From the NCBI GenBank assembly GCA_018268755.1, contig JAFDVW010000011.1, positions 24,343 through 88,342 on the forward strand: a DNA stretch of 64,000 nt. The letters are read 5' to 3'. Both the position numbers and the translations under genes were made by a program. Shown here piece by piece: positions 45,427-59,233 of this stretch. The notes below the pieces were generated by a model. It ran no database searches and was not told the DNA's origin. It saw nothing but the letters and a program-made list of their open reading frames with translations. Every line of letters begins with the position of its first letter. Positions within the stretch are counted from its first letter, which is position 1. Source of the DNA: Acidobacteriota bacterium. Its GTDB lineage: Bacteria > Acidobacteriota > Terriglobia > Terriglobales > Acidobacteriaceae.

Positions 45427-47595
45427 CTATTCGGCGTCCTGCACACAGCGGAAGCCGAGGCCCCCAGAGCGGTCCAGGCTGGGGGACGTTAACAGCAGCT
45501 TGCCATGCTGGTCGTTGCGATAGGCCTGGGGGAAATACCAGATGGAACCTTGCGGCTGGTAATAGCTGCCCCCGCGTAAAATCCCACCGCGGGTATGTTC
45601 GTCGGTGAACTCCTCCGTCCACTGCCAGACATTTCCCACCAGATCCATCACCCCAAAAGGGCTGGCGCCTTGGGGATGGGCATCCACGGCATCCGGCCCG
45701 CGCATGGTGCGGCCCTTGTCGGGAACCGGAACCGCCGCGGCGTTCCATTCATTGCCCCACGGATAGAGGCGACCGTCCGCGCCTTGCGCCGCATACTGCC
45801 ACTCCCATTCGTGCGGCAGGCGCTTGCCGGCCCAGGCGGCATAGGCCCGGGCATCCTCCTGTGAGACCCAGGTCACCGGTTTGTTGTCCCAGCCGGAGGG
45901 GAAGGCGCCGTCTTTCCAATCGCGCAGGAAGTTCAGTTTATCCACGGGATCGTAGTGGGTCGCGTCCATGAATTTCTTGAACTGCGCATTGGTGACAGGA
46001 TATTTGTCGATCCAAAACGCCTTCAGGTCCAGCTGCTGTTCGTGGAAACGCCGCGGCGTATCTTCCCAGGGATACTGCACATCCACACCGATATCGTTGA
46101 AGCCCTCGATTTCGATGCCCTGCACATGGAAGAGGAACTTCGCGGCGGGAATTTTCACCATGCCGGCGGGAGCGCCGGATGGCGGTTTGGTGGCGGCGAT
46201 GGGTACAATCTGTTGCGTCAGCACCTTCCACTCGTGCGAATAGCTGGAAAGCGGCGTGGAAGTCATCTCTTTCATTTTGGCCATGAGGGACTGGATGCCG
46301 GCGTCGGGCGAGGCGGGGGAGGCCAGCAGAGCGCCAAAGCCGTGCGCTTCCAGGGGGAAGCTGAGCACGATTTTTCCCGCCCTGCCGGCTTCGGGCTGCA
46401 ATTCCACCCCGTGATAAAGGTCGAAATAGCGCATGCCGCTTTGCGCCGGTAATTCAATCTGGCGCCCGGGTACGTCATATTCATTGCGGTTGACGATGGT
46501 CCAGACCGTCTGTTGCCCCAGCGGCCAACGGCTGGAGTAGACGCCGTCGCGCAGCATGGGCGCGTGTGGTTCCCACCCGGCACTTACCAGAAATGGGGCC
46601 ACCGCACGTTCGATGGTGGCGACCCGCCGCGTGGCTTCGCCGTCACGGGGGGTAATTCCATTCCAGATGCCCCAAATACTTTCCCAACTTTCCCAGCCCA
46701 CGCCGTTGAAGAAGGCAAACTGGAGATTATTGGTCTTATTGCGGTTCCAGCGGTCGGAGATGTTCACCATGTGGCGGGGCTCGAGCCACTTGTATTTATC
46801 GACCATGGGAACGAACGGATAGGAATATTGCCCCCACGTCATCACATTCCAGGCCAGCGCTTCGTCGGACGGGCCGCCTTCCGGCTCAAAGGCCAGCGGG
46901 TGTCCGGTCTTGTCGGCCGCAACAGAGTAGGCCAGCGGTACCCCATCCTGGGTATCGCCGTTAATGCCGTCAGCCCCAATCTCCGCCATCAGTTCGGCGA
47001 TGGCCTGGGTCCAGGGGATGCCGTTGTCGCGCGTTCCCTGGTCCCACATCATCATAGGGAAGAGCACGCGCACCCCGCGCCGGTGAAAGTCGGCGATCAT
47101 CTGCTTCACGCCGGGAATTCCGCCGGGCATGCTGCGGATCAGATCATGCTGGTTGCGGTTGTCGATCCCCATGTTGGGGTAAGTAGGCCAGATCAGGACG
47201 GCATCAATTCCGCCATAGCGCTTTTCGACATCATCCACATAGCGGTCGACGGTGTACTTGTGCTGGACGGGATCGTAGAAATAGCGGTCCTGCACCATCA
47301 TTTGCGGCTGGAAGAAGCTGCTCTGCGTCCACTTGAGGGCGGGCAGATCATAGCGCGAGCCATCATATCCAATGCGAATGCGGCGCTCATTGCGCCAGTG
47401 GGTGATGTCGGCCAGCCATTCATCGTGTTCGTTCTGGCTGCAGGCTTGCGAGCCGCCTTCCCAGGCGCCGCGCATGACGAGGCAAGCGGGGGTTGGGATC
47501 TGCTGGCGCTCCGGGCGATAGTCGGTGTCCTGGGCGGCGGCGCAGCCCGCCAATGCGAGAAGAAGCAAGCCGAACCGTAAGACGGGAAATTTCAT
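45427..47595 (-). CDS. Lipoprotein with TIM-barrel glycosidase-like domain and FGE-sulfatase-type domain
   Basis: The protein has 722 residues from the ATG at 47595 behind AAGGAGCC. The signal ends in a lipobox (LALAGC, Cys about 18), so it is a lipoprotein. Residues about 90-450 look like a glycoside-hydrolase TIM barrel (WPTYPNMGIDNRNQHDLIRS, then IGADGINGDTQDG). Residues about 490-720 form an FGE/SUMF1 domain (FWIDKYPVTNAQFKKFMDAT, GNVWQWTEEF, LGFRCVQDAE). The FGE part has only one cysteine, near its end, so true formylglycine synthesis is unlikely. It may bind or process sugar at the cell surface. A LacI-type operator precedes it, and the LacI gene follows. Confidence 0.85.
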   Translation of the reverse strand: MKFPVLRFGLLLLALAGCAAAQDTDYRPERQQIPTPACLVMRGAWEGGSQACSQNEHDEWLADITHWRNERRIRIGYDGSRYDLPALKWTQSSFFQPQMMVQDRYFYDPVQHKYTVDRYVDDVEKRYGGIDAVLIWPTYPNMGIDNRNQHDLIRSMPGGIPGVKQMIADFHRRGVRVLFPMMMWDQGTRDNGIPWTQAIAELMAEIGADGINGDTQDGVPLAYSVAADKTGHPLAFEPEGGPSDEALAWNVMTWGQYSYPFVPMVDKYKWLEPRHMVNISDRWNRNKTNNLQFAFFNGVGWESWESIWGIWNGITPRDGEATRRVATIERAVAPFLVSAGWEPHAPMLRDGVYSSRWPLGQQTVWTIVNRNEYDVPGRQIELPAQSGMRYFDLYHGVELQPEAGRAGKIVLSFPLEAHGFGALLASPASPDAGIQSLMAKMKEMTSTPLSSYSHEWKVLTQQIVPIAATKPPSGAPAGMVKIPAAKFLFHVQGIEIEGFNDIGVDVQYPWEDTPRRFHEQQLDLKAFWIDKYPVTNAQFKKFMDATHYDPVDKLNFLRDWKDGAFPSGWDNKPVTWVSQEDARAYAAWAGKRLPHEWEWQYAAQGADGRLYPWGNEWNAAAVPVPDKGRTMRGPDAVDAHPQGASPFGVMDLVGNVWQWTEEFTDEHTRGGILRGGSYYQPQGSIWYFPQAYRNDQHGKLLLTSPSLDRSGGLGFRCVQDAE

Positions 47596-47634
47596 AGCAA
47601 GGCTCCTTAGGCGAAAGCTCCGTTCGGCCTGCAA

Positions 47635-47652
47635 ATATAAAACGTTTCAAAA
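47635..47652. promoter_or_regulatory. LacI-type operator before the FGE-domain lipoprotein gene
   Basis: ATATAAAACGTTTCAAAA matches 15 of 18 positions of the perfect palindrome at 44173-44190, keeping the AAACGTTTCAA core. It lies 40 bp before the start codon of the lipoprotein gene, in its promoter. Confidence 0.7.
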
Positions 47653-47885
47653 AATCTGTCCATGGCTGGGCTGGCTCCGCCCCCGGGGACGCCGCGGCTG
47701 CCGCCTGTCAGGCCAGGCATTCTCGCCGCCGCCCGCGCTCCTTGGACATGCGTCAGGTTGAAGCAGAAAGGAAAGAAGGCGGCCCGAAAGAAATGGAGGG
47801 GGCGTGGGGCGAAGCCGCGGTCAGCGGCAGCTGAAAATTTTCATACCGCCTTAACAACACTTTCACAATTTACTGCTACTGTGCA

Positions 47886-47920
47886 GCTTCCGAAAGTCCA
47901 AATGGTGGACAAGCGGAAGC
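47886..47920 (+). promoter_or_regulatory. Nested leader hairpin
   Basis: GCTTCCG (47886-47892) pairs with CGGAAGC (47914-47920), and inside it GTCC (47896-47899) pairs with GGAC (47907-47910). It begins about where a transcript from the possible promoter at 47874-47882 would start. Confidence 0.5.
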
Positions 47921-47922
47921 AT

Positions 47923-47940
47923 CTTCGCCAGCGGGCGAAG
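47923..47940 (+). promoter_or_regulatory. Second leader hairpin
   Basis: CTTCGCC (47923-47929) and GGCGAAG (47934-47940) form a perfect seven-pair stem around AGCG, two bases after the nested hairpin. AGTGAAAAGGG follows rather than a T-run, so it is not a terminator on the plus strand. Confidence 0.5.
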
Positions 47941-48029
47941 TGAAAAGGGTTCCATCCTGGCTCTCCGGCAGTTTTCCAGGAGGCCTTACGTTACACGCTG
48001 TCTCTCACCACACGAACTGCAGTCATCAT

Positions 48030-48073
48030 GTGGAAAAGAAAGTCTGCTAAGGCGGGAAGGCGAAGCCCTGTCC
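48030..48073 (+). repeat. Leader direct repeat, copy 1
   Basis: This 44-bp copy matches 32 of 44 positions of copy 2; the core GCTAAGGCGGGA-N-GGC and AGCC is shared nearly exactly. The core can form GGC/GCC mini-stems. The ops-like octamer CGGTAGCG begins at its last base. Confidence 0.55.
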
Positions 48074-48242
48074 GGTAGCGGGCGGAGTGGGCCCGCGGCA
48101 GGCTCGGGCGCCGCCGTCTTCCGCTCGGGAGTGCATGGCAGCGCGAACCATGCGAATGAGTTGGGATAGCCTTTCACACTCATTGCGATGATTCGCGGGC
48201 CGGTTACCGTAGTCCGACGCCAGCGCCCAATCTTTTCCAGTT

Positions 48243-48286
48243 GAGGAAAACCAGCACCGCTAAGGCGGGATGGCAGAGCCTTGTCT
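48243..48286 (+). repeat. Leader direct repeat, copy 2
   Basis: The second copy starts 213 bp after the first, just before the antiterminator start at 48318. In the 27-base core 23 positions are identical to copy 1. A TTTTCC/GGAAAA stem overlaps its left side. Confidence 0.55.
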
Positions 48287-48317
48287 TCAAACAGCGTCAG
48301 TTTCCCTTGAAGCCATT

Positions 48318-48893
48318 ATGCAGCTCCGCGATTACAGTGCAACGCTCCATGGCGCGTCTCCCTCTGCGATGACTTGCCCTCTGCCAGCGACGGAAGCACG
48401 TTTGTGGTGCGCGGTCTACACCGCATCGAACCATGAGCGGCGCGTGGCCCAACATCTCCAGCAAAAGGAGATCGAAACGTTCTTGCCGCTCTACAGCGTG
48501 ACCCGGCGGTGGAAGAACCGGACCACGGTGAAAGTAGAACTGCCGCTCTTTGCCGGCTATGTCTTCGCCAGAATTCTTCCCAGCCAGACCGGGCGGGTGC
48601 TGGAAGTGCCCATGGTCTATGCCATCGTCAGCAACCGGCGCGGGCCTTTGCCACTGCCTGAGGCGGAGATTGAGACGCTTCGCAACGGATTGCAGGGGCG
48701 TCAAGTGCATCCCTTTCCCTATCTGAAAGTGGGCAACCGGGTGCGAATCCGTTCCGGCGCGCTCGCCGGCCTGGAAGGCATCGTAGTTCGCACCTATGGC
48801 AGCTTGAGCGTCGTCCTCAGCGTGGACACCATCCAGCGCAGCATTGCCGTGCACGTGGAACCGGACGAATTGGAGTCATGTACTCCGGAGTAG
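48318..48893 (+). CDS. UpxY-type NusG-family transcription antiterminator
   Basis: The protein has 191 residues from the ATG at 48318; an ATG 16 codons earlier lies inside direct repeat 2 and has its ribosome site too close. The NGN domain (LWCAVYTASNHERRVAQHL, FLPLYSVTRRWKNRTTVKVE, PLFAGYVFARI) is followed by a KOW-like domain (LKVGNRVRIRSGALAGLEGI). UpxY and RfaH-type proteins keep RNA polymerase elongating through long polysaccharide operons. It is the first gene of the exopolysaccharide locus, as expected for such a factor acting in cis. The structured leader before it may be its loading site. Confidence 0.88.
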   Translation: MQLRDYSATLHGASPSAMTCPLPATEARLWCAVYTASNHERRVAQHLQQKEIETFLPLYSVTRRWKNRTTVKVELPLFAGYVFARILPSQTGRVLEVPMVYAIVSNRRGPLPLPEAEIETLRNGLQGRQVHPFPYLKVGNRVRIRSGALAGLEGIVVRTYGSLSVVLSVDTIQRSIAVHVEPDELESCTPE

Positions 48894-48949
48894 TGGCGTG
48901 GTCGATCAGTTCTGACCTGCAGGAACTTAATCCAAAGGAACTGTTTTCT

Positions 48950-49525
48950 ATGAAACTGCTGAAACCGGCCGCTTACCTCCTTTTGTTTGCCTTGGGCCTG
49001 GGTCCGACGGCGATGGCGCAGGACCAGCCGCAGGATCCACTGGTCCGCATCGCGGACAATGCCCCGAAGCCCGCGAGCTGGCTGCCGTATTCCTCCCCGG
49101 CGCTGCTCGCTACAGCCGTGAGTCCGGAACTGTGGCCGGATGCTCCCAGCGCGCAGGCCCCGCCCGCTCCCCCGCAAGAGCAGGCGATCCAGGCCAGGAA
49201 GCGGGACGCGGATTTAAACGCGCGGCCCACCATGAACTCTCCGATGGGCGGGCCTTTCTGGATTTCCAATACGCTGCTCATGGCCTCCACCGTCACCAAC
49301 ATTGAAATGATCATGGGCTGCCGCGCCTCCGCCTGCCAGATGGTGCCCGATTCGCTGCGTAACCGGGGCGCACTCTATGGCATTGGAATTCCCGCCAGCC
49401 TGGGCGTTTCCTACATCAGCTACAAGCTGAAGCGGGGCGGGACGCGCTGGTGGATCGTGCCGGTGGCGGTGTTCACCGCCGGCAACGTGATTTATGCCGC
49501 CCATGCTTCTCAATGGGGACGCTGA
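48950..49525 (+). CDS. Hypothetical exported protein of the polysaccharide locus
   Basis: The protein has 191 residues from the ATG at 48950, about 12 bp after AAAGGA. A signal peptide (about 1-23, ending in AMAQ) precedes a Pro-rich stretch (APPAPPQEQAIQ). A region with a cysteine pair (GCRASACQMVPDSL) and two short hydrophobic segments near the C-terminus (LYGIGIPASLGVSYISY and WWIVPVAVFTAGNVIYA) follow. It lies between the antiterminator and the Wzc-type kinase genes in one transcription unit. I do not recognise the family; an envelope role in export or anchoring is possible from position only. Confidence 0.75.
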   Translation: MKLLKPAAYLLLFALGLGPTAMAQDQPQDPLVRIADNAPKPASWLPYSSPALLATAVSPELWPDAPSAQAPPAPPQEQAIQARKRDADLNARPTMNSPMGGPFWISNTLLMASTVTNIEMIMGCRASACQMVPDSLRNRGALYGIGIPASLGVSYISYKLKRGGTRWWIVPVAVFTAGNVIYAAHASQWGR

Positions 49526-49586
49526 ATCAAGCCTCCGAAACGCATGGCAAGAAACGGAACTGTCCTATAAGGAGTCGCAAGACAGA

Positions 49587-51830
49587 ATGCGAGAAACCAA
49601 TACACAAATTACGAGGGTGACCGGGCTTCGCCAGGGGGCGATCTCTTCGGTTTCGCCAACTGCGTTCCACAGCGCGGAACTTTCGCTCTCGGAGATTTGG
49701 GTGAAAATCTGGAAGCGGAGGCTCGCCGCATCAACGTTTGCCGCGTTCCTCTTCCTGCTGGTGGCTCTCTACACGTTCCTAAAGCGCCCGGTTTACGAGA
49801 GTGTGGCACAAATCCGCGTGGATTCCAGCCAGCAAGCCAGTCTGGGCCTGGAAGACATCATTTCTCAAAAGCTTTCGGATTCCGACAGCGAGGGCGGACG
49901 CCTGCAGACCGAAGTTACCATTCTGCAGAGCCCTCCCGTCTCGATGCAGGTCATCCGCAATCTCGACATGGGCCATCGCGTCGATTTCGCCGGCAAGGAA
50001 CTGGCAGCCAAGGTCAATGCAGTCGACCCGGTGAAGATGGAGCCGGAGTATCGCGAAGAGCTGCTGACCAAGTTTCGCAACGCCGAGCGCATCGAGGTCC
50101 TGCCCAAGACCCGGGTGATTGAAATCCGTTTTCGCAGCGTCGATGCCAAGCTGGCTTCCGATACCGTCAACGAGATTGTGGACGCCTACCTGCAGCGCAA
50201 CTTCCAGGTGAAATATCAGGGGGCGGTGCAGGTATCGGAATGGCTTTCCAAGCAGATGGAGGAGCTGAAATCGAATGCCGCGCTGGCCCAGCAGCGCCTG
50301 GCGGAATTTCAGAAGCAGAACAATATTCTGGGTACGGACGAGAACAACAACATTGTCACCGACCGCCTGCGGCAGTTGAACCAGCAACTGGCGGACGCCG
50401 AAGCCGATCGCATCGTCAAGGAAGCGCGCTTCCGTCTGGCCAGCTCCGGCAATCCCGAGTTGGTGGCGGCGGTCGTGCCCAGTACCACCTTGCAGGCCCT
50501 GCGCACCCAGGAAGCGGAATTGAAGGCGCAATATGCGCAGCTGGATGCCAAGTTCGGCGCCGGGTATCCCAAGGTGCAGGAGTTACAAGGCCAGCTTAAG
50601 CGACTGGACCAGACCATCGCGGAAGAGATCGGCAACGTCGGGCAACGCCTGCACGATGAGTTTCAGGCCGCGCAAAACAGCGAGAACCTGCTGCGCCAGC
50701 AATTCGAGTTGCAAAAACAGGAAGCTTTCAAGCTCAACGCCAGCGCGGTGCAGTTTGCCAGCCTGAAGCACGAGGTGGAATCCAGTCAGGAGCTGAGCGA
50801 CACGCTGCAGTTGAAGCTGAAGGAAGCCGGTCTGCTGGCCGGGTTGGCCTCGGCCGACATCAGCATTGTCACGCGTGGCATGATCGCGGCGCGTCCGGCG
50901 TTTCCTAAAAAATCTTTGATGCTGCCGCTCGGGGTTCTCCTCAGCCTGTTCGGCGGGCTGGTGCTGGTGTTTGCCCTGGAGTCTTTTGATGACTCCATCC
51001 GCACCAGTGAAGAAGTGGAGGCGGTTTCTTCCGTGCCCGCGCTGGCGGCCATTCCCCTGGTGACAGGCCGTCTACTGCGGGCGGGAGGAAAGAATGCCAA
51101 GCCGCAAATCGGGTCCGGCGGACTGGGCGCCATGGCCGCGCACCGCCCGGGCTCGTTATTGGCAGAAGCCTATCGCGTATTGTGCAACTCGCTGCTGTTT
51201 ACTTCCGCCGACAAGCCGCCGCACTTGTTGGTGGTGACCAGCGCCTTCCCCAGCGAGGGCAAATCGGTCTCCAGTTGCAATCTGGCGATTACGCTGGCGC
51301 AGCGCGGAGCGCGCGTTCTGCTGATCGACGCCGACCTGCGCAGCTCCGCGCTTTCCGGGCATCTGGGTGCGGAACCAAATGCCGCGGTGGGATTGAGCTC
51401 CATCCTGACCGGCAACAGCGAATTCGACGATGCCGTCACCAAGCCGTTTCCCCAGCTGACCAGTTTGCACGTTATTTCCGCTGGACCGCGGGCGCCCTGG
51501 CCTGCGGAACTGCTGGCCTCCAAAAAGATGTCGGAGCTGTTGGAGAACTGGTCCAGCCAATATGACCACATCGTGATTGACACCGCGCCGGTGCTGTTCT
51601 TCGCCGACACCATTCCCCTGGCCGCCAAAGCCGACGGCGTTTTGCTGGTGGTGCGTTCCGGGCGCTCGCGTCGCAAGGCCCTGGTCCGCATGCTCGACCT
51701 GTTGTCTCGCTCGCAAGCCAGAGTCCTGGGCGTGATTGTCAACGGCGTGGTCCTGCAGCCGGAATATGCCAATCCTTATCTCGCCTATGGGTACGGAAAC
51801 GGAGACCTCCATGAGAACAGCCAGAATTAA
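49587..51830 (+). CDS. Wzc-type polysaccharide co-polymerase and BY tyrosine kinase
   Basis: The protein has 747 residues from the ATG at 49587, about 12 bp after AAGGAG. Two membrane segments (about 43-62 and 448-470) flank a periplasmic Wzz domain with long coiled-coil helices. The cytoplasmic C-terminal kinase has Walker A SAFPSEGKSVSS, Walker A' LLIDADLRSS and Walker B HIVIDTAPVLFFAD. The tail carries clustered tyrosines (YANPYLAYGYG) for autophosphorylation. It sets chain length and drives export in Wzx/Wzy pathways together with Wza. No Wzb-type phosphatase gene is seen nearby. The next gene overlaps by 20 bp. Confidence 0.92.
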   Translation: MRETNTQITRVTGLRQGAISSVSPTAFHSAELSLSEIWVKIWKRRLAASTFAAFLFLLVALYTFLKRPVYESVAQIRVDSSQQASLGLEDIISQKLSDSDSEGGRLQTEVTILQSPPVSMQVIRNLDMGHRVDFAGKELAAKVNAVDPVKMEPEYREELLTKFRNAERIEVLPKTRVIEIRFRSVDAKLASDTVNEIVDAYLQRNFQVKYQGAVQVSEWLSKQMEELKSNAALAQQRLAEFQKQNNILGTDENNNIVTDRLRQLNQQLADAEADRIVKEARFRLASSGNPELVAAVVPSTTLQALRTQEAELKAQYAQLDAKFGAGYPKVQELQGQLKRLDQTIAEEIGNVGQRLHDEFQAAQNSENLLRQQFELQKQEAFKLNASAVQFASLKHEVESSQELSDTLQLKLKEAGLLAGLASADISIVTRGMIAARPAFPKKSLMLPLGVLLSLFGGLVLVFALESFDDSIRTSEEVEAVSSVPALAAIPLVTGRLLRAGGKNAKPQIGSGGLGAMAAHRPGSLLAEAYRVLCNSLLFTSADKPPHLLVVTSAFPSEGKSVSSCNLAITLAQRGARVLLIDADLRSSALSGHLGAEPNAAVGLSSILTGNSEFDDAVTKPFPQLTSLHVISAGPRAPWPAELLASKKMSELLENWSSQYDHIVIDTAPVLFFADTIPLAAKADGVLLVVRSGRSRRKALVRMLDLLSRSQARVLGVIVNGVVLQPEYANPYLAYGYGNGDLHENSQN

Positions 51831-52755
51831 GGCGCGCACCGGGGCTTTGGGCCGTGCTCTGGCCGGTGCGGTTTTGATCCTCACCCTGGTGCTAAGCGCG
51901 TTTGCGCAAAGCATTCCCGCCGGCAACCTGCCGGTTCCCGCCCTGCGTATTGCCGCTGGCGATCTGCTTTCCGTGGACGTCTTCGATACGCCGGAACTTT
52001 CCGGCAAATTGCGGGTGAGCGAGAAAGGCGAAATTGCCGTGCCGGTGGCCGGCGATGTGCGCGTGGGCGGCATGACGGCGGAAGAAGCCGCGCGCAACGT
52101 GGAGCAGGCGCTGCAAGGCAAAAGCATTCTCAAGCACCCGCATGTCTCGGTATTCGTTCTGGAATACGCCACCCAAGGAGCATCGGTCCTGGGCGAGGTG
52201 AAGAACCCCGGGGTCTATCCGGTCCTGGGCACACACACGCTGTTGGATTTCATCTCCGTGGCGGGCGGGGTAACCCCCAACGCGGGCAAAGCGGTCACCA
52301 TCACCCACAAGAACGATCCCGCGCATCCCAATGTGGTGCAGCTGGACAACGCCACTGACCTCGCGGTGCGGGCGGGCATAACCATCCTTCCCGGCGACAC
52401 CATCGTGGTGTCCCGATCGGGCGTAGTGTACGTGGTGGGCGACCTGGTGAAACCGGGCGGATTTCTCATCGAGAACAACGAGCGCCTCACCGTGCTGCAA
52501 GCTGTGGCGCTGGCCCAGGGGCCGAACCGCACGGCGGGACTCAATCGCACCCGGCTGATCCGCAAATCCACCGCCGGCCGCCAGGAAATTCCGGTGGAGC
52601 TGGGAAAAATTCTGGCCGGCAAACGGGACGACCTGCGTCTGGAAGATGGCGACATTCTGTTTGTCCCCGCCAGCCAGAGCAAGACCCTCGCCTATCGTGG
52701 AATTGAAGCCACCATCAGCATGGCAACTGGATTGGTCATCTACAACCGTTTCTAA
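51811..52755 (+). CDS. Wza-type polysaccharide export protein (SLBB domains)
   Basis: The protein has 314 residues from the ATG at 51811 behind GGAGACCTCC. A signal peptide (about 1-33) precedes a polysaccharide export (PES) domain (IAAGDLLSVDVFDTPELSGK) and two SLBB domains (ASVLGEVKNPGVYPVLGTHT and VYVVGDLVKPGGFLIENNE). There is no lipobox cysteine, unlike classical Wza lipoproteins. It forms the outer-membrane export channel that docks onto the Wzc-type protein. It overlaps the kinase gene by 20 bp and abuts the next start codon exactly. Confidence 0.92.
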   Translation: MRTARIKARTGALGRALAGAVLILTLVLSAFAQSIPAGNLPVPALRIAAGDLLSVDVFDTPELSGKLRVSEKGEIAVPVAGDVRVGGMTAEEAARNVEQALQGKSILKHPHVSVFVLEYATQGASVLGEVKNPGVYPVLGTHTLLDFISVAGGVTPNAGKAVTITHKNDPAHPNVVQLDNATDLAVRAGITILPGDTIVVSRSGVVYVVGDLVKPGGFLIENNERLTVLQAVALAQGPNRTAGLNRTRLIRKSTAGRQEIPVELGKILAGKRDDLRLEDGDILFVPASQSKTLAYRGIEATISMATGLVIYNRF

Positions 52756-53400
52756 ATGTCGATGAAGCGTATCGCAGGTTGGATGATGGCGGTCGTGCTG
52801 GTCCCGGCCTTGCTGTTTGGCCAGGAAGTGTCACCGCGGGTGAATGCGATCGACGCTTCGGCGCATTCCCGCATCCAAAATCCCGACCAGCCCGGGGCTT
52901 CGCCGGCAAGCACTCAGGCCGCCGGCAAGCCATTCTCCGGTAAGTCTCAGGCGGCAGTCTCTTCCGCCCAGCAGCCCACCTGGAATCCGGCCGCATCCGC
53001 GACGTCGAAGTGGGGGCCGCTCCCGGTGAAATCCGTAGTTGTTTCTGCCTTTCCCGGCAAAGAGAAGAGCGAAGACAGTGGCGATCAGGAGAAGGAGCAA
53101 GCCAAAGCTGTGAGCGCCGCTCGTACCTTGCCGGCTCCGGCGCAGCCCGCCTCCGTTGATGCCGGGAATGTTCTGGGATTGCGCATGCGCAGGCAGGCGG
53201 CCGTTGGCTCTGCCTCGACCGCTCCCGCTAGCTCCTTGCAAGTCACACCCTGGAGCAGAAGGCCCTTGTCCGGGAGCAGTCAGCGCTCTCATTCTGGAAT
53301 TCGCGCCGCATCCGTCTCGCGCTTTTCTTTGCGCCACGGCTTTACCTCGCGCGCAGGCCAGAAGCCTGCGGGGCGCCGGCGCGACCGCCAAACAGATTGA
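52756..53400 (+). CDS. Hypothetical exported protein, Ser/Ala/Pro-rich
   Basis: The protein has 214 residues; its ATG follows the stop of the export gene directly, and its stop overlaps the next start (TGATG). A hydrophobic start (RIAGWMMAVVLVPALLFGQ) looks like a signal peptide. The rest is low in complexity, rich in Ala, Ser, Pro and Gln, with an acidic patch (KEKSEDSGDQEKEQAK) and a basic C-terminal third rich in Arg and Ser. No domain is recognised. Tight coupling to both neighbours suggests it is translated. The basic tail may reflect a frame drift, so the C-terminal part is less certain. Confidence 0.6.
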   Translation: MSMKRIAGWMMAVVLVPALLFGQEVSPRVNAIDASAHSRIQNPDQPGASPASTQAAGKPFSGKSQAAVSSAQQPTWNPAASATSKWGPLPVKSVVVSAFPGKEKSEDSGDQEKEQAKAVSAARTLPAPAQPASVDAGNVLGLRMRRQAAVGSASTAPASSLQVTPWSRRPLSGSSQRSHSGIRAASVSRFSLRHGFTSRAGQKPAGRRRDRQTD

Positions 53401-54605
53401 TGCTGATCACTGCGCCACTTCCGCGGCCGGAACGGGAGCCGCTCGACCTCCACCGGTTCTCTCAGTGGCGCGTGGCCATCATCCACTACTGGTTCGTCAG
53501 CCACGGTGGGGGGGAACGCGTGGTGGAGGCCCTGGCCGAGTTGTTTCCCCAGGCGGATATTTTTACTCTGGTGGTGGACGATGCCAAGCTGCCCTCCAGT
53601 TTGCGGCAGCGCCGCATCCACACCTCGTTTCTGCAGCGCATCCCCGGCGCCCGCAAGTTTCACCGCCATTTCCTGCTTCTTCAGCCCCTGGCCCTGGAGA
53701 AGTTTGATCTGAGCAAATACGATCTGGTCCTCAGTTCGGAGTCCGGTCCCGCTAAGGGGGTGATTACTTCTCCCCGGACTTGCCACGTTTGTTATTGCCA
53801 CTCCCCGATGCGTTATCTGTGGGACGGCGGCCCGGAATATCGCCGCAGCATGGGCCCGCTGGTGGGCCCAGTGTTTTCCCTGGCCGCGCACTACATGCGT
53901 CTATGGGACCTGGCATCTGCCAATCGAGTGGACCACTTCATCGCCAATTCACGTTTTGTGGCCTCTCGCATCCGTAAGTACTACCGGCGGGAAAGCGTTG
54001 TGATTCATCCTCCGGTGCATATCCCCGCCGTGGAAGTGCAGGACGATCATCAGGGCTACTACCTGGTGGTCAGCCGCCTGGTGAATTACAAGCGCATTGA
54101 TCTGGCGGTGGAAGCCTGCCGGCAAACGGGAAGGGAACTGCGCATTGTGGGAGAAGGGCCGGAGTACAAGCTGCTCAAGCGCATGGCCGGCCCCACTATT
54201 CATTTTCTCGGGTCGCTGTCCGATGCGGAAATGCAGCAACAGCTCTCCGGGTGCCGGGCTTTCCTGTTGCCGGGGGAAGAGGATTTCGGCATCGCCCCGG
54301 TGGAAGCGCAGAGTTATGGCAGGCCGGTGATTGCCTTCGCTTCCGGCGGCGCGCTGGAGACAGTGCGAGGGACAGCTGGCCGGGGGGCCACGCTGAGCGA
54401 CCCCACCGGAGTGTTCTTCTCGGAACAGTCCGTGGACTGCCTCATTGAGGCCATGGAGCGACTGGAAGCCATGGCGCCGAAATTTTCCTCCCGCGCCATC
54501 CGCAGACACGCTCTGCAATTTGGACGAGAACGCTTCCAGGAAAGAATGGCCGGATTTTTGGCGGACGCGATGACGCAGTGGGCGGTCAGCGCGCCTACCC
54601 ACTAA
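53400..54605 (+). CDS. GT4-family glycosyltransferase
   Basis: The protein has 401 residues from the ATG at 53400, overlapping the previous stop. The N-terminal GT-B domain shows [20 protein letters not shown] with the glycine-rich acceptor loop. The C-terminal domain has YYLVVSRLVNYKRIDLAVEA and the nucleotide-sugar motif EEDFGIAPVEA (E-x7-E). It is a retaining transferase likely acting on lipid-linked intermediates at the inner face of the membrane. Sugar donor and linkage are unknown; a mannosyltransferase is possible. A 103-bp gap follows before the initiating transferase gene. Confidence 0.9.
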   Translation: MLITAPLPRPEREPLDLHRFSQWRVAIIHYWFVSHGGGERVVEALAELFPQADIFTLVVDDAKLPSSLRQRRIHTSFLQRIPGARKFHRHFLLLQPLALEKFDLSKYDLVLSSESGPAKGVITSPRTCHVCYCHSPMRYLWDGGPEYRRSMGPLVGPVFSLAAHYMRLWDLASANRVDHFIANSRFVASRIRKYYRRESVVIHPPVHIPAVEVQDDHQGYYLVVSRLVNYKRIDLAVEACRQTGRELRIVGEGPEYKLLKRMAGPTIHFLGSLSDAEMQQQLSGCRAFLLPGEEDFGIAPVEAQSYGRPVIAFASGGALETVRGTAGRGATLSDPTGVFFSEQSVDCLIEAMERLEAMAPKFSSRAIRRHALQFGRERFQERMAGFLADAMTQWAVSAPTH

Positions 54606-54708
54606 GGCCGTTTCCGGCAGACGCTGCACGAAAGTTTCCGCCCTACGCCATCGCCACCAACTCGTAACCAGGCCTCAGCCATAAAAATGTTCTACCCGGA
54701 GTGAAGCG

Positions 54709-56088
54709 ATGATCGGTCTCCTCAACCGCGCTGCATTCAACCTTCGGTTGTTAACGCTGTTTCTGCCCTTGTGGTCTTTTGTAGTGACCGGGGCGCTGTG
54801 GTGGCATTGGGCGGTGCTATCCAACGTCGACCCGCACCCGTATTTCGCCTTGCTGGTGTTCACTACCATTGCCTGGTCGGTGGCCAGCGAGAACTATGGG
54901 CTTTGCACCACGGCCTACATTCTGACCAGCGGAGGCAAAGTCTACGCCGCTTTTCTGGCCACGCTGATGACGGTGTTTGCGGACCTGGTGTTCATGTTTT
55001 TCTATCGCGGAATTGATTTCTCCCAGTCCTTCGTGACCGCCAATGTTCTGGTGCTGCTGTTTTCCACGTTGAACCTGCGCATGCTGCTGCGCACCGCGCT
55101 GAACGGTAAATTTCTCTCGAAATCCGGGGGGATTCGCGTGCTGCTCATCGGCGCCGACGAGTTTGCGGAACGGGTGGCGCAATGCTTGGCGGCGCGGGAA
55201 TTTAAGGGCGTGGAGATTGTCGGCTTCGTGCAGCTTCCCGGCCAGGAATCCGTTGTCAGCGGGCCGGTTTACAGCATGGACGAAGTCGGTCAAGTGGTGG
55301 CGCGCAATCAACTGGATGACGTGGTCCTGGCCCTGCCGGCCCCGCGCTTGCGAGAGTTGCCCCAGATCCGCGAAACCCTGCGTCACATTGGCGTGCCGGT
55401 GCGCGTGGTGCTCGATCTGGGCGATCAGACTCCCAGCAGTGATCGCCTGTTCAATGTCAACGGGGTCTGGATGGTGGATGTGTGCCACACTCCGGCGGAG
55501 TCGGTGATGTATATGATCCTGAAGCGCGGCTTTGATCTGGCCTTTTCCGCGGTGGCGCTCCTGCTGTTGGCTCCGGTCATGGCCCTGATTGCGGTAATCA
55601 TCAAAAGCACGTCTCCCGGCCCGGTGCTGTTCGCGCAAGAGCGCGTCGGGTTCAAGGGCAATGTATTCCGCATGTACAAATTCCGCACCATGCACCTGAG
55701 CAGCGAAGCCGAGAGTAACACCAAGTGGACTTGCCGCGATGATTCCCGGCGCACTCGCTTCGGCGTGTTCCTGCGCCGCACCAGCCTGGATGAGATCCCG
55801 CAATTCTTGAATGTGCTCAAGGGCGATATGAGCGTAGTGGGGCCGCGCCCCGAACGCCCTTATTTCGTGCAGAAATTTGCCGTGGAAGTTCCCCACTACG
55901 GTGCGCGCCATTATCTGAAGGTCGGCATCACGGGATGGGCCCAGGTCAATGGCTGGCGCGGCGACACCTCTATCGAGAAGCGCATTGAGCATGACCTGTA
56001 CTACCTGCAGAACTGGAGTCTGCTGTTCGATTTGCGGATCGTGCTACGCACGGTGCTGCACACCTTTACCGCGCGGCATGCCTATTAG
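54709..56088 (+). CDS. Undecaprenyl-phosphate sugar phosphotransferase (initiating polyprenyl glycosylphosphotransferase)
   Basis: The protein has 459 residues: about four N-terminal membrane helices, a CoA-binding-like Rossmann region (about 140-240), one more helix (about 275-300) and the conserved bacterial sugar transferase domain. Motifs include KRGFDLAFSAVALLLLAPVM, GPVLFAQERVGF, YKFRTM, LRRTSLDEIPQFLNVLKGDM and VGPRPERP. It starts repeat-unit synthesis by moving a sugar phosphate from UDP-sugar to undecaprenyl phosphate, as WcaJ and WbaP do. It ends exactly where the nucleotidyltransferase gene begins. The sugar is not determined by the sequence. Confidence 0.93.
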   Translation: MIGLLNRAAFNLRLLTLFLPLWSFVVTGALWWHWAVLSNVDPHPYFALLVFTTIAWSVASENYGLCTTAYILTSGGKVYAAFLATLMTVFADLVFMFFYRGIDFSQSFVTANVLVLLFSTLNLRMLLRTALNGKFLSKSGGIRVLLIGADEFAERVAQCLAAREFKGVEIVGFVQLPGQESVVSGPVYSMDEVGQVVARNQLDDVVLALPAPRLRELPQIRETLRHIGVPVRVVLDLGDQTPSSDRLFNVNGVWMVDVCHTPAESVMYMILKRGFDLAFSAVALLLLAPVMALIAVIIKSTSPGPVLFAQERVGFKGNVFRMYKFRTMHLSSEAESNTKWTCRDDSRRTRFGVFLRRTSLDEIPQFLNVLKGDMSVVGPRPERPYFVQKFAVEVPHYGARHYLKVGITGWAQVNGWRGDTSIEKRIEHDLYYLQNWSLLFDLRIVLRTVLHTFTARHAY

Positions 56089-56808
56089 ATGGGCGCATAC
56101 TCTGGGATCATCCTGGCCGGCGAACCCTTAGCCTATGCGCAACCCGCATTGCGTGGCATGCCCAGGAGTATGTCTCCGGTGGCTAAACGGCCATTTCTGG
56201 AATACATGCTGACGCGCTTGCGGATCGGCGGTATCACCGATGTGGTGCTTTGCGTGGGATACAAACGGTCGCACATTCAGAGCCACATTCGCAAAGGTCG
56301 CAAGTGGGGCCTGCAGGTCCGCTATTCCGTGGAGAAAGAACGGTTGGGAACGGCCGGGGCCGTGAAGCAGGCCGGCGATCTGCTGGCCGCTCCGGAGTGG
56401 TTTGTCTTCAAAGGTGATTCCTTGCTCGACTTTGATGTTCAGGCCATGCGGGAGTTTCACCAGGAGCGCCGTGCCATGGCCACCGTGGCGCTGGTTTCCC
56501 GCGCCGGTCATTATGGACGAGTGGTGCTGAATGAGCGCCATGAAATTGCCGCCTTCCGCGATAAAAAAGAGGGAGCACCCGGATGCGGCGGCAAGTGTCT
56601 GATCAATGCCGGAGTGTATCTGTTGAGCCGGCGATGTCTCGATCTGGTCCCCTCCGGGCGGCCTGTTTCGCTGGAAAATGAAATCTTTCCCGCTCTGATC
56701 GGCAGTGGTTTGTATGGCTTCCGCAGCGCCGGAAATTTCATCGATGTCAATGTTCCGGAAGACTTGTCGCGCGCGCAGTACGAACTCTCGATGAGGCCGA
56801 AAACCTAG
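56089..56808 (+). CDS. Nucleotidyltransferase-like protein with degenerate active-site loop
   Basis: The protein has 239 residues; its ATG follows the preceding stop directly. The fold and later motifs match sugar-1-phosphate nucleotidyltransferases of the HddC type: PFLEYMLTRLRIGGITDVVL, GTAGAVKQAGDLL, FKGDSLLDFDV with the metal-type Asp and SLENEIFPALI. The N-terminal loop that normally reads AGGLGTRL...PKPM is AGEPLAYA...PRSM here, losing the catalytic Arg and Lys. Activity is therefore doubtful. It may still bind sugar nucleotides, or may be a decayed copy. It sits between the initiating transferase and the flippase fusion. Confidence 0.8.
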   Translation: MGAYSGIILAGEPLAYAQPALRGMPRSMSPVAKRPFLEYMLTRLRIGGITDVVLCVGYKRSHIQSHIRKGRKWGLQVRYSVEKERLGTAGAVKQAGDLLAAPEWFVFKGDSLLDFDVQAMREFHQERRAMATVALVSRAGHYGRVVLNERHEIAAFRDKKEGAPGCGGKCLINAGVYLLSRRCLDLVPSGRPVSLENEIFPALIGSGLYGFRSAGNFIDVNVPEDLSRAQYELSMRPKT

Positions 56809-56857
56809 GGCGCGAACCGCGCCCGCAACTTGCATCCCACCGTATTCCCCTGGCCTG

Positions 56858-59233
56858 ATGCGTTCCCGTCGAATATTCCTCAATACCATAGCTTCGTATG
56901 CCCGGCTGGCTGTAGCGGCGGCCGCTGGGTTCCTTACCTTACCCATGGTGCTGCGCACTCTGGGCGCGGCGGACTACGGCATTTTCGCCGTGATTGCCGG
57001 CAGCTTGAGCTTTTTGCTGTTTATCAATGGAGCTCTAACCACGGGGGCGCAGCGCCACATCGCCTACGCGCTGGGAGAAGGCAAATCCGAAGAGGCCGCG
57101 GACTGGTTCAATGCCAGTTTAGTGGTGCACATGCTTCTGGCCGTGGCCATTCTGCTGGTGGCGCTGGCGGGCTCCGATTGGGTCATCTACCGGCTGCTGA
57201 AATTACCCGCCCAGCGTCTGAGCGCGGCCCTGTGGATTTACCGTTCGGTGATCGCCGTCATGCTGTGCAGCATCATTTCGACTCCCTATCAGGCGCTGCT
57301 CATGGCCAAAGAGTCGTTGACCGCGTTGTCGCTGATGGCGATGGGCGGATCATTTTTTCTGGTCGCGGGGGTGGTCGTATTGCGGCGCCTACCCGGCGAC
57401 CGGCTACTGTGGTACGCCGGAATTTATGCCGTCAGCCAGGCCATGCTCTTTGCCGGACCGATGCTCTATTGCGTGCTCCGCTATGCGGAGTGCCGGCAGT
57501 GGTCGTGGCAGCGCATCGCAGGGGCGAAGGTCAAAGACCTGCTCAGCTTCTCTGGCTGGAACCTTCTGGGGACACTGGCGGTGCAGATTCGTTACCAGGG
57601 GCCGGCCGTGCTGCTCAACCGGTTTATTGGCACCACGGCCAACGCGGCCAACGGAATTGCCATGCAGGTGAATGGCTTTGCCGCCAGCCTCAGTACCGGT
57701 CTGCTACGTGCGACTTCTCCCTCCATTGTGAAATCGGAAGCGGCCGGCGAACGCGCCGAAATGCTCCTGCTTTCCAATCTCTCGAACAAATATGCCTTCG
57801 TGCTTCTCTGGTTGATGATCGGGCCGCTACTGTTTGAATTGCACTACTGCCTTGGGCTTTGGCTCCGGCAAGTGCCGCCCGGAACCGAAGTGTTTTCTCT
57901 TGCCCTGCTCATCGCCTTGCTGATCGACATGCTGACCGCCGGATTCATGGCGACGGTACAGGCCGAAGGGCGCATCGCGCTCTACCAGGGAGTGGTTGGA
58001 TTGCTGATTTGCAGTTCCATCCCGGTGGGCTATCTGTTTCTTCGCGCCAACTTGCCGGCCAGCTCCGTGCTGTGGGCCGGGGTAGGGGCCTCAGCCCTGG
58101 CCGGCGCGGGACGCTTAGGGTTTGTCTGCAGGACCATAGGACTCAGAAAAAGGGACTGGCTGCACGGCGTTCTGGGCCCTTGTCTTGGAGTGAGCGGGCT
58201 GACCTCTACGGCCATGATGCTGGTCGTGACCGGCGCCCATCCCGGACTATTGCGTGTGTTTGGGCTCTACCTTCTGAACGCAACCATCACCCTGCTGTTG
58301 GTTTTGGTGTTCGCCGGAAGCGCCATGGAGCAGCGCGTGTTGCGCGGATACGCCGCGCGATTCTTGCCCGCGTTCGCGGCGCCAGGCGGCGGGCGCGCCC
58401 TGCCTTTCTCTCAGCTCAGTTCTTTCTTTTCTTCTGGAGCCCGCATGTTTTCCAGCGTTTCTCACTCCGTTTCGGCCAGCGCGCCGCGGCCGGAAAAAGT
58501 CAGCATCCTCATGCTTACCCATAATGCGCCGCGTTATGTAGAGATCTCCATTCGCAGCCTGGCCCGGCAAACCCAAGGCGTGAACTACGAGCTGGTGGTG
58601 GTAGACAACGCTTCGCATCCGCCCACTCGTGAGCTTCTCTCTCGGCTGCAGCAGGAAGGGCTGGTGCACCAGCTCCGTCTTCTGGACCACAATTCTTTCT
58701 TTGCCGGCGGCAACAACATCGCTTCGCGTGTGGCCTCGAGCGACAGCACACACTTTCTCCTGCTGAACAGCGACGTCGAGATCAAGGACCCGGCCTGGCT
58801 GTCGCATCTCCTTTCCATCCATAAGCCGGGCATCACGGCCTACGGTGTGGTCGAAGATCCCTTGCGCGTGGACGGATATTGCCTGCTGGTGGATGCCCCG
58901 CTCTACCGTGACCACTTGCTCGACGAAGGCCACCAGTTTTTCTGGGCGGTCACTAAATTTCAGGGCGCGCTGCTGGCCAAGGGGTACTCCGTCCAGGGAT
59001 ATGCCGAGCACAAAAAGTATCTGCATCACTTCGGGGGCAAGAGCGGCAAGGCCTACAAAGCGGCCAAGGGGCTGGAAGTAAGCGCGCAGCAACTGGCCGA
59101 ATATTTTCAGGGCCACACCATCGCAGTGCTGGATGTGCTGCCTGATGGTTCGCTACCCCAGCGGCCCAAACGCAATGTGATCGATCGCGGCATTTCCCGC
59201 ATGCAGCGCCTGTTTGAGCGCGCCTTTGCCTGA
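56858..59233 (+). CDS. Wzx-type flippase fused to GT2 glycosyltransferase
   Basis: The protein has 791 residues. Residues 1 to about 500 form a Wzx/MATE-fold oligosaccharide flippase with about 12-14 helices (opening FLNTIASYARLAVAAAAGFL, then GAADYGIFAVIAGS). Residues about 540-790 form a GT2-like domain (KVSILMLTHNAPRYVEISI, VVVDNASHPPTRELL, LLLNSDVEIKDPAWL), where DVE replaces the usual DxD. Joining the two is unusual because they are normally separate genes. An in-frame ATG (58445, residue 530) preceded by CTGGAGCCCGC could also start a separate GT2. The flippase half would carry lipid-linked units across the inner membrane. Confidence 0.85.
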   Translation: MRSRRIFLNTIASYARLAVAAAAGFLTLPMVLRTLGAADYGIFAVIAGSLSFLLFINGALTTGAQRHIAYALGEGKSEEAADWFNASLVVHMLLAVAILLVALAGSDWVIYRLLKLPAQRLSAALWIYRSVIAVMLCSIISTPYQALLMAKESLTALSLMAMGGSFFLVAGVVVLRRLPGDRLLWYAGIYAVSQAMLFAGPMLYCVLRYAECRQWSWQRIAGAKVKDLLSFSGWNLLGTLAVQIRYQGPAVLLNRFIGTTANAANGIAMQVNGFAASLSTGLLRATSPSIVKSEAAGERAEMLLLSNLSNKYAFVLLWLMIGPLLFELHYCLGLWLRQVPPGTEVFSLALLIALLIDMLTAGFMATVQAEGRIALYQGVVGLLICSSIPVGYLFLRANLPASSVLWAGVGASALAGAGRLGFVCRTIGLRKRDWLHGVLGPCLGVSGLTSTAMMLVVTGAHPGLLRVFGLYLLNATITLLLVLVFAGSAMEQRVLRGYAARFLPAFAAPGGGRALPFSQLSSFFSSGARMFSSVSHSVSASAPRPEKVSILMLTHNAPRYVEISIRSLARQTQGVNYELVVVDNASHPPTRELLSRLQQEGLVHQLRLLDHNSFFAGGNNIASRVASSDSTHFLLLNSDVEIKDPAWLSHLLSIHKPGITAYGVVEDPLRVDGYCLLVDAPLYRDHLLDEGHQFFWAVTKFQGALLAKGYSVQGYAEHKKYLHHFGGKSGKAYKAAKGLEVSAQQLAEYFQGHTIAVLDVLPDGSLPQRPKRNVIDRGISRMQRLFERAFA

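Follow-up and report, generated by a model that had tools for sequence, protein, structure and literature searches.

The leader of an UpxY-family gene in an Acidobacteriota genome carries a short conserved element in two copies. Judging from sequence comparison, each copy is probably an ops-like site at which RNA polymerase pauses and UpxY is loaded. The recruitment of operon-encoded NusG paralogues such as UpxY has been described as unknown (PMC7593976). No published description of the element was found in the literature that we searched, which is not proof of absence. The DNA analysed (the window) comprises 64,000 nt of an Acidobacteriota bacterium (Terriglobia; Terriglobales; Acidobacteriaceae), assembly GCA_018268755.1, contig JAFDVW010000011.1, positions 24,343-88,342 of the forward strand.

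The original prediction described a 44-bp imperfect direct repeat in this leader, with 32 of 44 positions identical. The repeat exists (48029-48072 and 48242-48285, spacing 213), and a recount gives 33 of 44. Its proposed 23/27 core was reproduced, the best self-match of a 27-mer in the leader being 23, compared with 16-18 in 12 shuffles. The core pattern of the repeat is GCTAAG-N7-GGCGNAGCC-NTG, and within the window a 22-nt core occurs at two places only, which are both repeat copies (0.02 expected). Taken as a whole the earlier observation is confirmed, since the repeat is real and both hairpins noted at the 5' end can be drawn. The parts of the two copies are as follows:

48029..48070, + strand: element copy 1, whole (5' box, small hairpin, GNA mini-hairpin and TG); match to covariance model R1 at E 1.9e-5.
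48029..48038, + strand: 5' box TGTGGAAAAG of copy 1, a GGAAA[A/T] box at fixed distance.
48043..48056, + strand: small hairpin of copy 1, UCUGC[UAAG]GCGGG, from folding; weak when the copy is taken alone.
48059..48067, + strand: GNA mini-hairpin of copy 1, GGC-GAA-GCC, the ops-like core, from motif counts, stem pairs and DNA fold.
48068..48070, + strand: CTG of copy 1, predicted pause with the RNA 3' end at T48069 and next base G48070, from the ops/pause-consensus register.
48242..48283, + strand: element copy 2, whole; R1 match at E 5e-4, repeats copy 1.
48257..48268, + strand: small hairpin of copy 2, CCGC[UAAG]GCGG, from folding.
48272..48280, + strand: mini-hairpin of copy 2, GGC-AGA-GCC, loop off the GNA consensus, from sequence and DNA fold.
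48281..48283, + strand: TTG of copy 2, predicted pause with the RNA 3' end at T48282, register as in copy 1.

The repeat is the conserved part of the window leader. The closest relative has an UpxY 83% identical to that of the window. About 38 nt of its leader can be aligned well; they correspond to the element, at 87% for copy 1 (48033-48070) and 76% for copy 2, in the same place. The two 5' hairpins, 47886-47920 (GCTTCCG..CGGAAGC) and 47923-47940 (CTTCGCC-AGCG-GGCGAAG), are drawable but not conserved, as the relative's leader has no counterpart of either. Folding of the whole leader barely beats shuffles (z -1.7), and a DNA search with the whole leader in 60 relatives returned no match, because conservation is limited to the short element. 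The proposal that the hairpins start near a possible promoter is unsupported, since a scan of the + strand from 47000 to 49500 found no sigma-70-like promoter. Likewise, the resemblance to ops does not lie in the octamer CGGTAGCG (48073-48080), which had been likened to it, because relatives have no such octamer at the corresponding position beside the element. The ops-like part is GGCGAAGCC-CTG in copy 1 and GGCAGAGCC-TTG in copy 2, within the repeat itself. A 17-nt inverted repeat (48023-48039 and 48231-48247, 82% complementary) may allow the 5' box of copy 1 to pair with the bases immediately 5' of copy 2.

A riboswitch or attenuator that senses a small molecule had also been suggested, and a long structured leader ahead of a biosynthetic operon would suit one. 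We find this scarcely credible. Neither the window nor related loci gave an Rfam match at the gathering score, c-di-GMP-I included. No intrinsic terminator was found 3' of the 5' hairpins and no terminator-like site in the leader, where the sole 5-bp match (47821-47834) is fewer than in shuffles. Moreover, the conserved part measures only ~40 nt and goes with UpxY and with its kind of targets, polysaccharide or polyketide operons. The sequence GCGGGANGGCRRAGCC resembled the 3' half of the GEMM (c-di-GMP) riboswitch; this candidate was rejected, as Rfam gave no match even at permissive E-values.

Downstream of the leader lie:

48318..48893, + strand: upxY, encoding an UpxY-family NusG paralogue with NGN and KOW domains (NCBIfam NF033644; Pfam NusG 4.7e-18).
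49494..59233, + strand: polysaccharide operon encoding a Wzc-like kinase, polysaccharide export protein, glycosyltransferases, sugar transferase and nucleotidyltransferase (Pfam).

Assignment to the UpxY family is based on a narrow pass of NF033644 (101.5 bits, cut-off 100), on the NGN and KOW domains and on the polysaccharide operon downstream, which is presumed to be the operon served by UpxY. The start of upxY is uncertain, because the frame is open already from ATG 48270 within copy 2 (48270-48893); start-to-domain spacing in a relative favours 48318. In a structure model (mean pLDDT 80, shallow alignment) the C-terminal domain of UpxY is all-strand, unlike the helical closed form of RfaH, which is weak evidence on mechanism. 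Within the operon, 56858-59233 is a single 791-aa frame whose C-terminal part is a GT2 glycosyltransferase (Pfam) and whose N-terminal half looks flippase-like by eye, possibly a flippase/GT2 fusion.

We examined the leaders of UpxY genes across the order. An order-wide search with the core pattern of the window alone gave 11 matches in other genomes, four of them just upstream of upxY. A third core match in the window's own genome (C25:21635) was set aside as chance: it lacks the GCC arm, no upxY was seen nearby and its strand is opposite to the adjoining frame. Among 119 distinct UpxY leaders, which are related by descent so that counts are of non-independent events, a 28-base profile finds the element in about half. 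The motif RGCGNAGCY, within 260 nt of the UpxY domain, occurs in sense in 94 leaders and in antisense in two, compared with a shuffled mean of 2.7; the antisense count is the fairer control, because the motif was chosen after part of the leaders had been inspected. All three UpxY genes listed in the window's own genome have it. About one fifth of the leaders are without RGCGNAGCY, which counts against a pause-and-load site. Coverage extended well over one order of Acidobacteriota and briefly over one other class of the phylum, that of G277, in whose UpxY leaders the element was looked for and not found. In a phylum scan with R1, 4 of 297 genomes matched, so this form of the element is essentially confined to the window's family. 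Before one upxY (L058, G103:C6:108072-108708) four tandem copies lie ~190-220 nt apart as part of a longer repeated unit; the window copies are spaced at a similar 213 nt.

The element also stands before operons other than those that begin with upxY. Model R1 was trained on upxY leaders only and searched against 249 genomes. At E<1e-3 it gave 56 sites, 41 of them just upstream of upxY by coordinates and largely the training set. The other 15, outside training, without exception precede polysaccharide or polyketide-type operons. Genes at the polysaccharide-type sites encode Wzz/Wzc, Poly_export, glycosyltransferases, GDP-mannose dehydratase and nucleotidyltransferase. Four sites (L194, L195, L196, L202) precede polyketide- or acyl-carrier-type clusters, and the UpxY regulon may therefore exceed polysaccharides. 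At four of the polysaccharide-type sites (L191, L192, L199, L201) the first gene after the element is TetR-like. Among the 15, site G194:C26 follows a upxY on its contig, and site G105:C11 is oriented divergently to one. Three examined sites from the weaker R1 matches of E 0.005-0.05 (L203-L205) have mixed genes downstream, one BcsC-like. Furthermore, UpxY is encoded in 39 of 39 genomes with R1 sites, compared with 146 of 249 overall. Because the same site precedes operons without a upxY directly downstream, UpxY probably also acts in trans there.

The best-conserved part of the element places a small hairpin in the register of a transcriptional pause. The consensus of 48 members is NNTGCTAAGTNAGGATGGCGAAGCCNTG, and its 3' part, GGCGAAGCCATG, has a 12-base register identical to that of ops, GGCGGTAGCGTG. 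The pause consensus is G-11 G-10 ... Y-1 G+1, and the element matches it, with T at -1. TG is present in 42 of 50 member sites. Copy 1 (GGCGAAGCCCTG) has both the GGCG start and TG at positions 11-12; copy 2 (GGCAGAGCCTTG) shares GG and TG only, and its AGA loop is off the GNA consensus, a point against pausing and loading there. Compensatory base changes, which the original prediction had named as support for a structured RNA, were found. In the small stem they are modest, since the inner two pairs are invariant and only the outer one varies (G-C 31, A-U 8, G-U 8, other 1); they are broader in a variable hairpin upstream. GNA and GNNA loops closed by at least two G-C pairs form extraordinarily stable DNA mini-hairpins, GCGAAGC having a Tm of 78 C (PMC4686876). 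The GGCGNAGCC hairpin is likewise weak as RNA and very stable as DNA, and we infer that GC-GGTA-GC of ops is a mini-hairpin of the GNNA kind.

The variable hairpin ends with its 3' arm 2-6 bases 5' of the mini-hairpin and is found at this position in most members. Its stem sequences are diverse and the pairing is kept (CUCAC/GUGAG, CCUCGC/GCGGGG, GGCACU/AGUGCC, CGUC/GACG, GGCUUAGC/GCUAAGUC). Over 49 upxY elements the stem score is 12.45 vs a null of 8.62 (sd of mean 0.37). Folding z is -1.1 for upxY elements, -0.8 for trans sites, ~0 for weaker members and 0.06 for control windows. At the 15 trans sites the stem exceeds the null only a little, a further point against pausing and loading as we propose it. 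Both window copies have UAAG-loop stems that are weak on their own. Hairpin type tracks UpxY clade, with 8 changes vs a shuffled mean of 19.6; such a match would be expected if UpxY reads the hairpin, and inheritance alone would cluster the types too. Further upstream, 24-27 nt 5' of the mini-hairpin, 20 of 81 elements have the box TGTGGAAAA (GGAAA[A/T]; shuffled mean 1.4), which is present in both window copies (48029-48038, 48242-48251).

These hairpins raise the question of whether the element acts purely as RNA, UpxY binding one or more nascent hairpins after their exit from polymerase, as LoaP does, with no need of a DNA hairpin or a pause. The kept pairing and its agreement with clade speak for this, and LoaP sets the precedent of a leader RNA hairpin without pause (PMC12691694). 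We nevertheless consider it unlikely: conservation is highest in the short GGCGNAGCC, which is a stable hairpin as DNA and, with the TG after it, falls exactly in pause register, whereas the sequence of the upstream hairpin is not conserved and its stem is weak in both window copies and at the trans sites.

Some upstream hairpins are palindromic (CCTCAC CCAA GTGAGG), and together with the TetR-like first genes at four trans sites they would suit a double-stranded operator or promoter element for a transcription factor, for example the TetR-like proteins of some target operons. This is very unlikely, as the strand is fixed (94 vs 2), stem sequences and pairing register vary freely with pairing kept, no TetR gene was seen in the window operon and the pattern matches none of the sigma factor consensuses tried. 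A sigma-54 promoter was rejected, its spacing being one base short and variants breaking the pattern.

The conserved TG could also belong to a translation signal, with the element providing the ribosome-binding region and the NTG start codon for upxY. Of 52 leaders, 22 have an NTG from which an open frame runs into UpxY, in most cases 36-95 nt from the domain; there it may be the upxY start, which also counts against a pause-and-load site. In the other 30 (the window and 29 more) the NTG lies in another frame or is followed by a stop, yet 23 of these keep TG, some as CTG, a count somewhat biased because the profile used to find elements includes TG. The TTG of copy 2 lies in a different frame from upxY and so is not its start codon. 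Sites before other operons are mostly distant from any start, and in orthologues such as L014 the gene starts separately, with a Shine-Dalgarno-like sequence of its own. Translation is thus not the whole reason for conservation, and we give very little credence to translational control as the function of the element.

As a prediction, the UpxY loading site put forward originally is supported by a conserved, strand-biased element in ops register that is tied to UpxY genes. The ops analogy stands with it; the CGGTAGCG octamer, the 5' hairpins and the riboswitch or attenuator fall away. In the mechanism that we propose, polymerase heading for upxY would make the small nascent-RNA hairpin and then stall at T-1 G+1 just past GGCGAAGCC. 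The RNA of the GGCGAAGCC segment would at that moment sit within the RNA:DNA hybrid, so the exposed non-template strand would be free to fold the GNA mini-hairpin. UpxY would read this DNA mini-hairpin, and probably also the RNA hairpin immediately behind, and load in place of NusG. By analogy with RfaH and UpxY biology, loaded UpxY would travel with polymerase and suppress pausing and premature termination over upxY and the long operon. Two copies would offer two loading chances, and UpxY probably works in trans at polysaccharide or polyketide operons of other genomes.

More tentatively, the site may be composite, a NusG-family protein reading it twice at one stalled polymerase, as a GNA DNA mini-hairpin and as a clade-specific RNA hairpin; we regard this as possible rather than probable. 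If true, the UpxY family would gain its first known recruitment code, and GNA and GNNA mini-hairpins, with ops among them, would make up a single general class of signals in the non-template strand. The element itself offers a concrete, testable sequence for how UpxY finds its operons. It predicts the pause position to the base and the operons that UpxY serves in trans, connects ops with a broader class of DNA mini-hairpins and can be used to search Acidobacteriota for polysaccharide and polyketide operons controlled by antitermination.

Among known structures, d(GCGAAGC)/GNA mini-hairpins have a loop and closing pairs identical to those of the element (PMC4686876, PMC10527192). They are known from laboratory oligonucleotides. 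To our knowledge, no natural signal has been built on them. In Bacteroides fragilis, upxY comes first in the polysaccharide operon and UpxY acts in the leader upstream of upxY (PMC7819879). The window shares the arrangement of a polysaccharide operon with upxY first. We know of no recruitment site in the B. fragilis system. The LoaP leader hairpin (dfn/mln) of Bacillus velezensis is an RNA hairpin with a UNCG loop and does not induce pausing (PMC12691694). It resembles the element in being a small leader hairpin for a NusG paralogue, with polyketide operons among the targets, but the element has a GNA motif in pause register, and its hairpin loops are UAAG in the window and others elsewhere, not UNCG.

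The closest likeness in layout is to E. coli ops and RfaH. TG stands at positions 11-12 in every validated ops target, and the non-template strand of ops forms a hairpin closed by C3:G8 (PMC5995543). The element likewise has a 12-base motif in pause register with a GGCG start and TG at 11-12, a small non-template hairpin that can form, a place in the leaders of long polysaccharide-type operons and a NusG paralogue as its predicted user. Element sites without an adjoining upxY also share the RfaH/ops layout of operons served in trans. The differences are equally clear. The loop is GNA (GAA or GGA) rather than GGTA, with no flipped T and without the G5 and T6 that RfaH reads; the stem has up to three pairs, an extra variable hairpin lies just upstream, and the site often precedes the regulator's own gene. 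Among the RfaH residues that contact ops (K10, H20, R23, R73), the UpxY alignment retains H20 alone, which fits the different loop. Since the loop bases are not those of ops and the residues with which RfaH makes contact are not the same in UpxY, the element would be ops-like in its working and yet is not an ops element.
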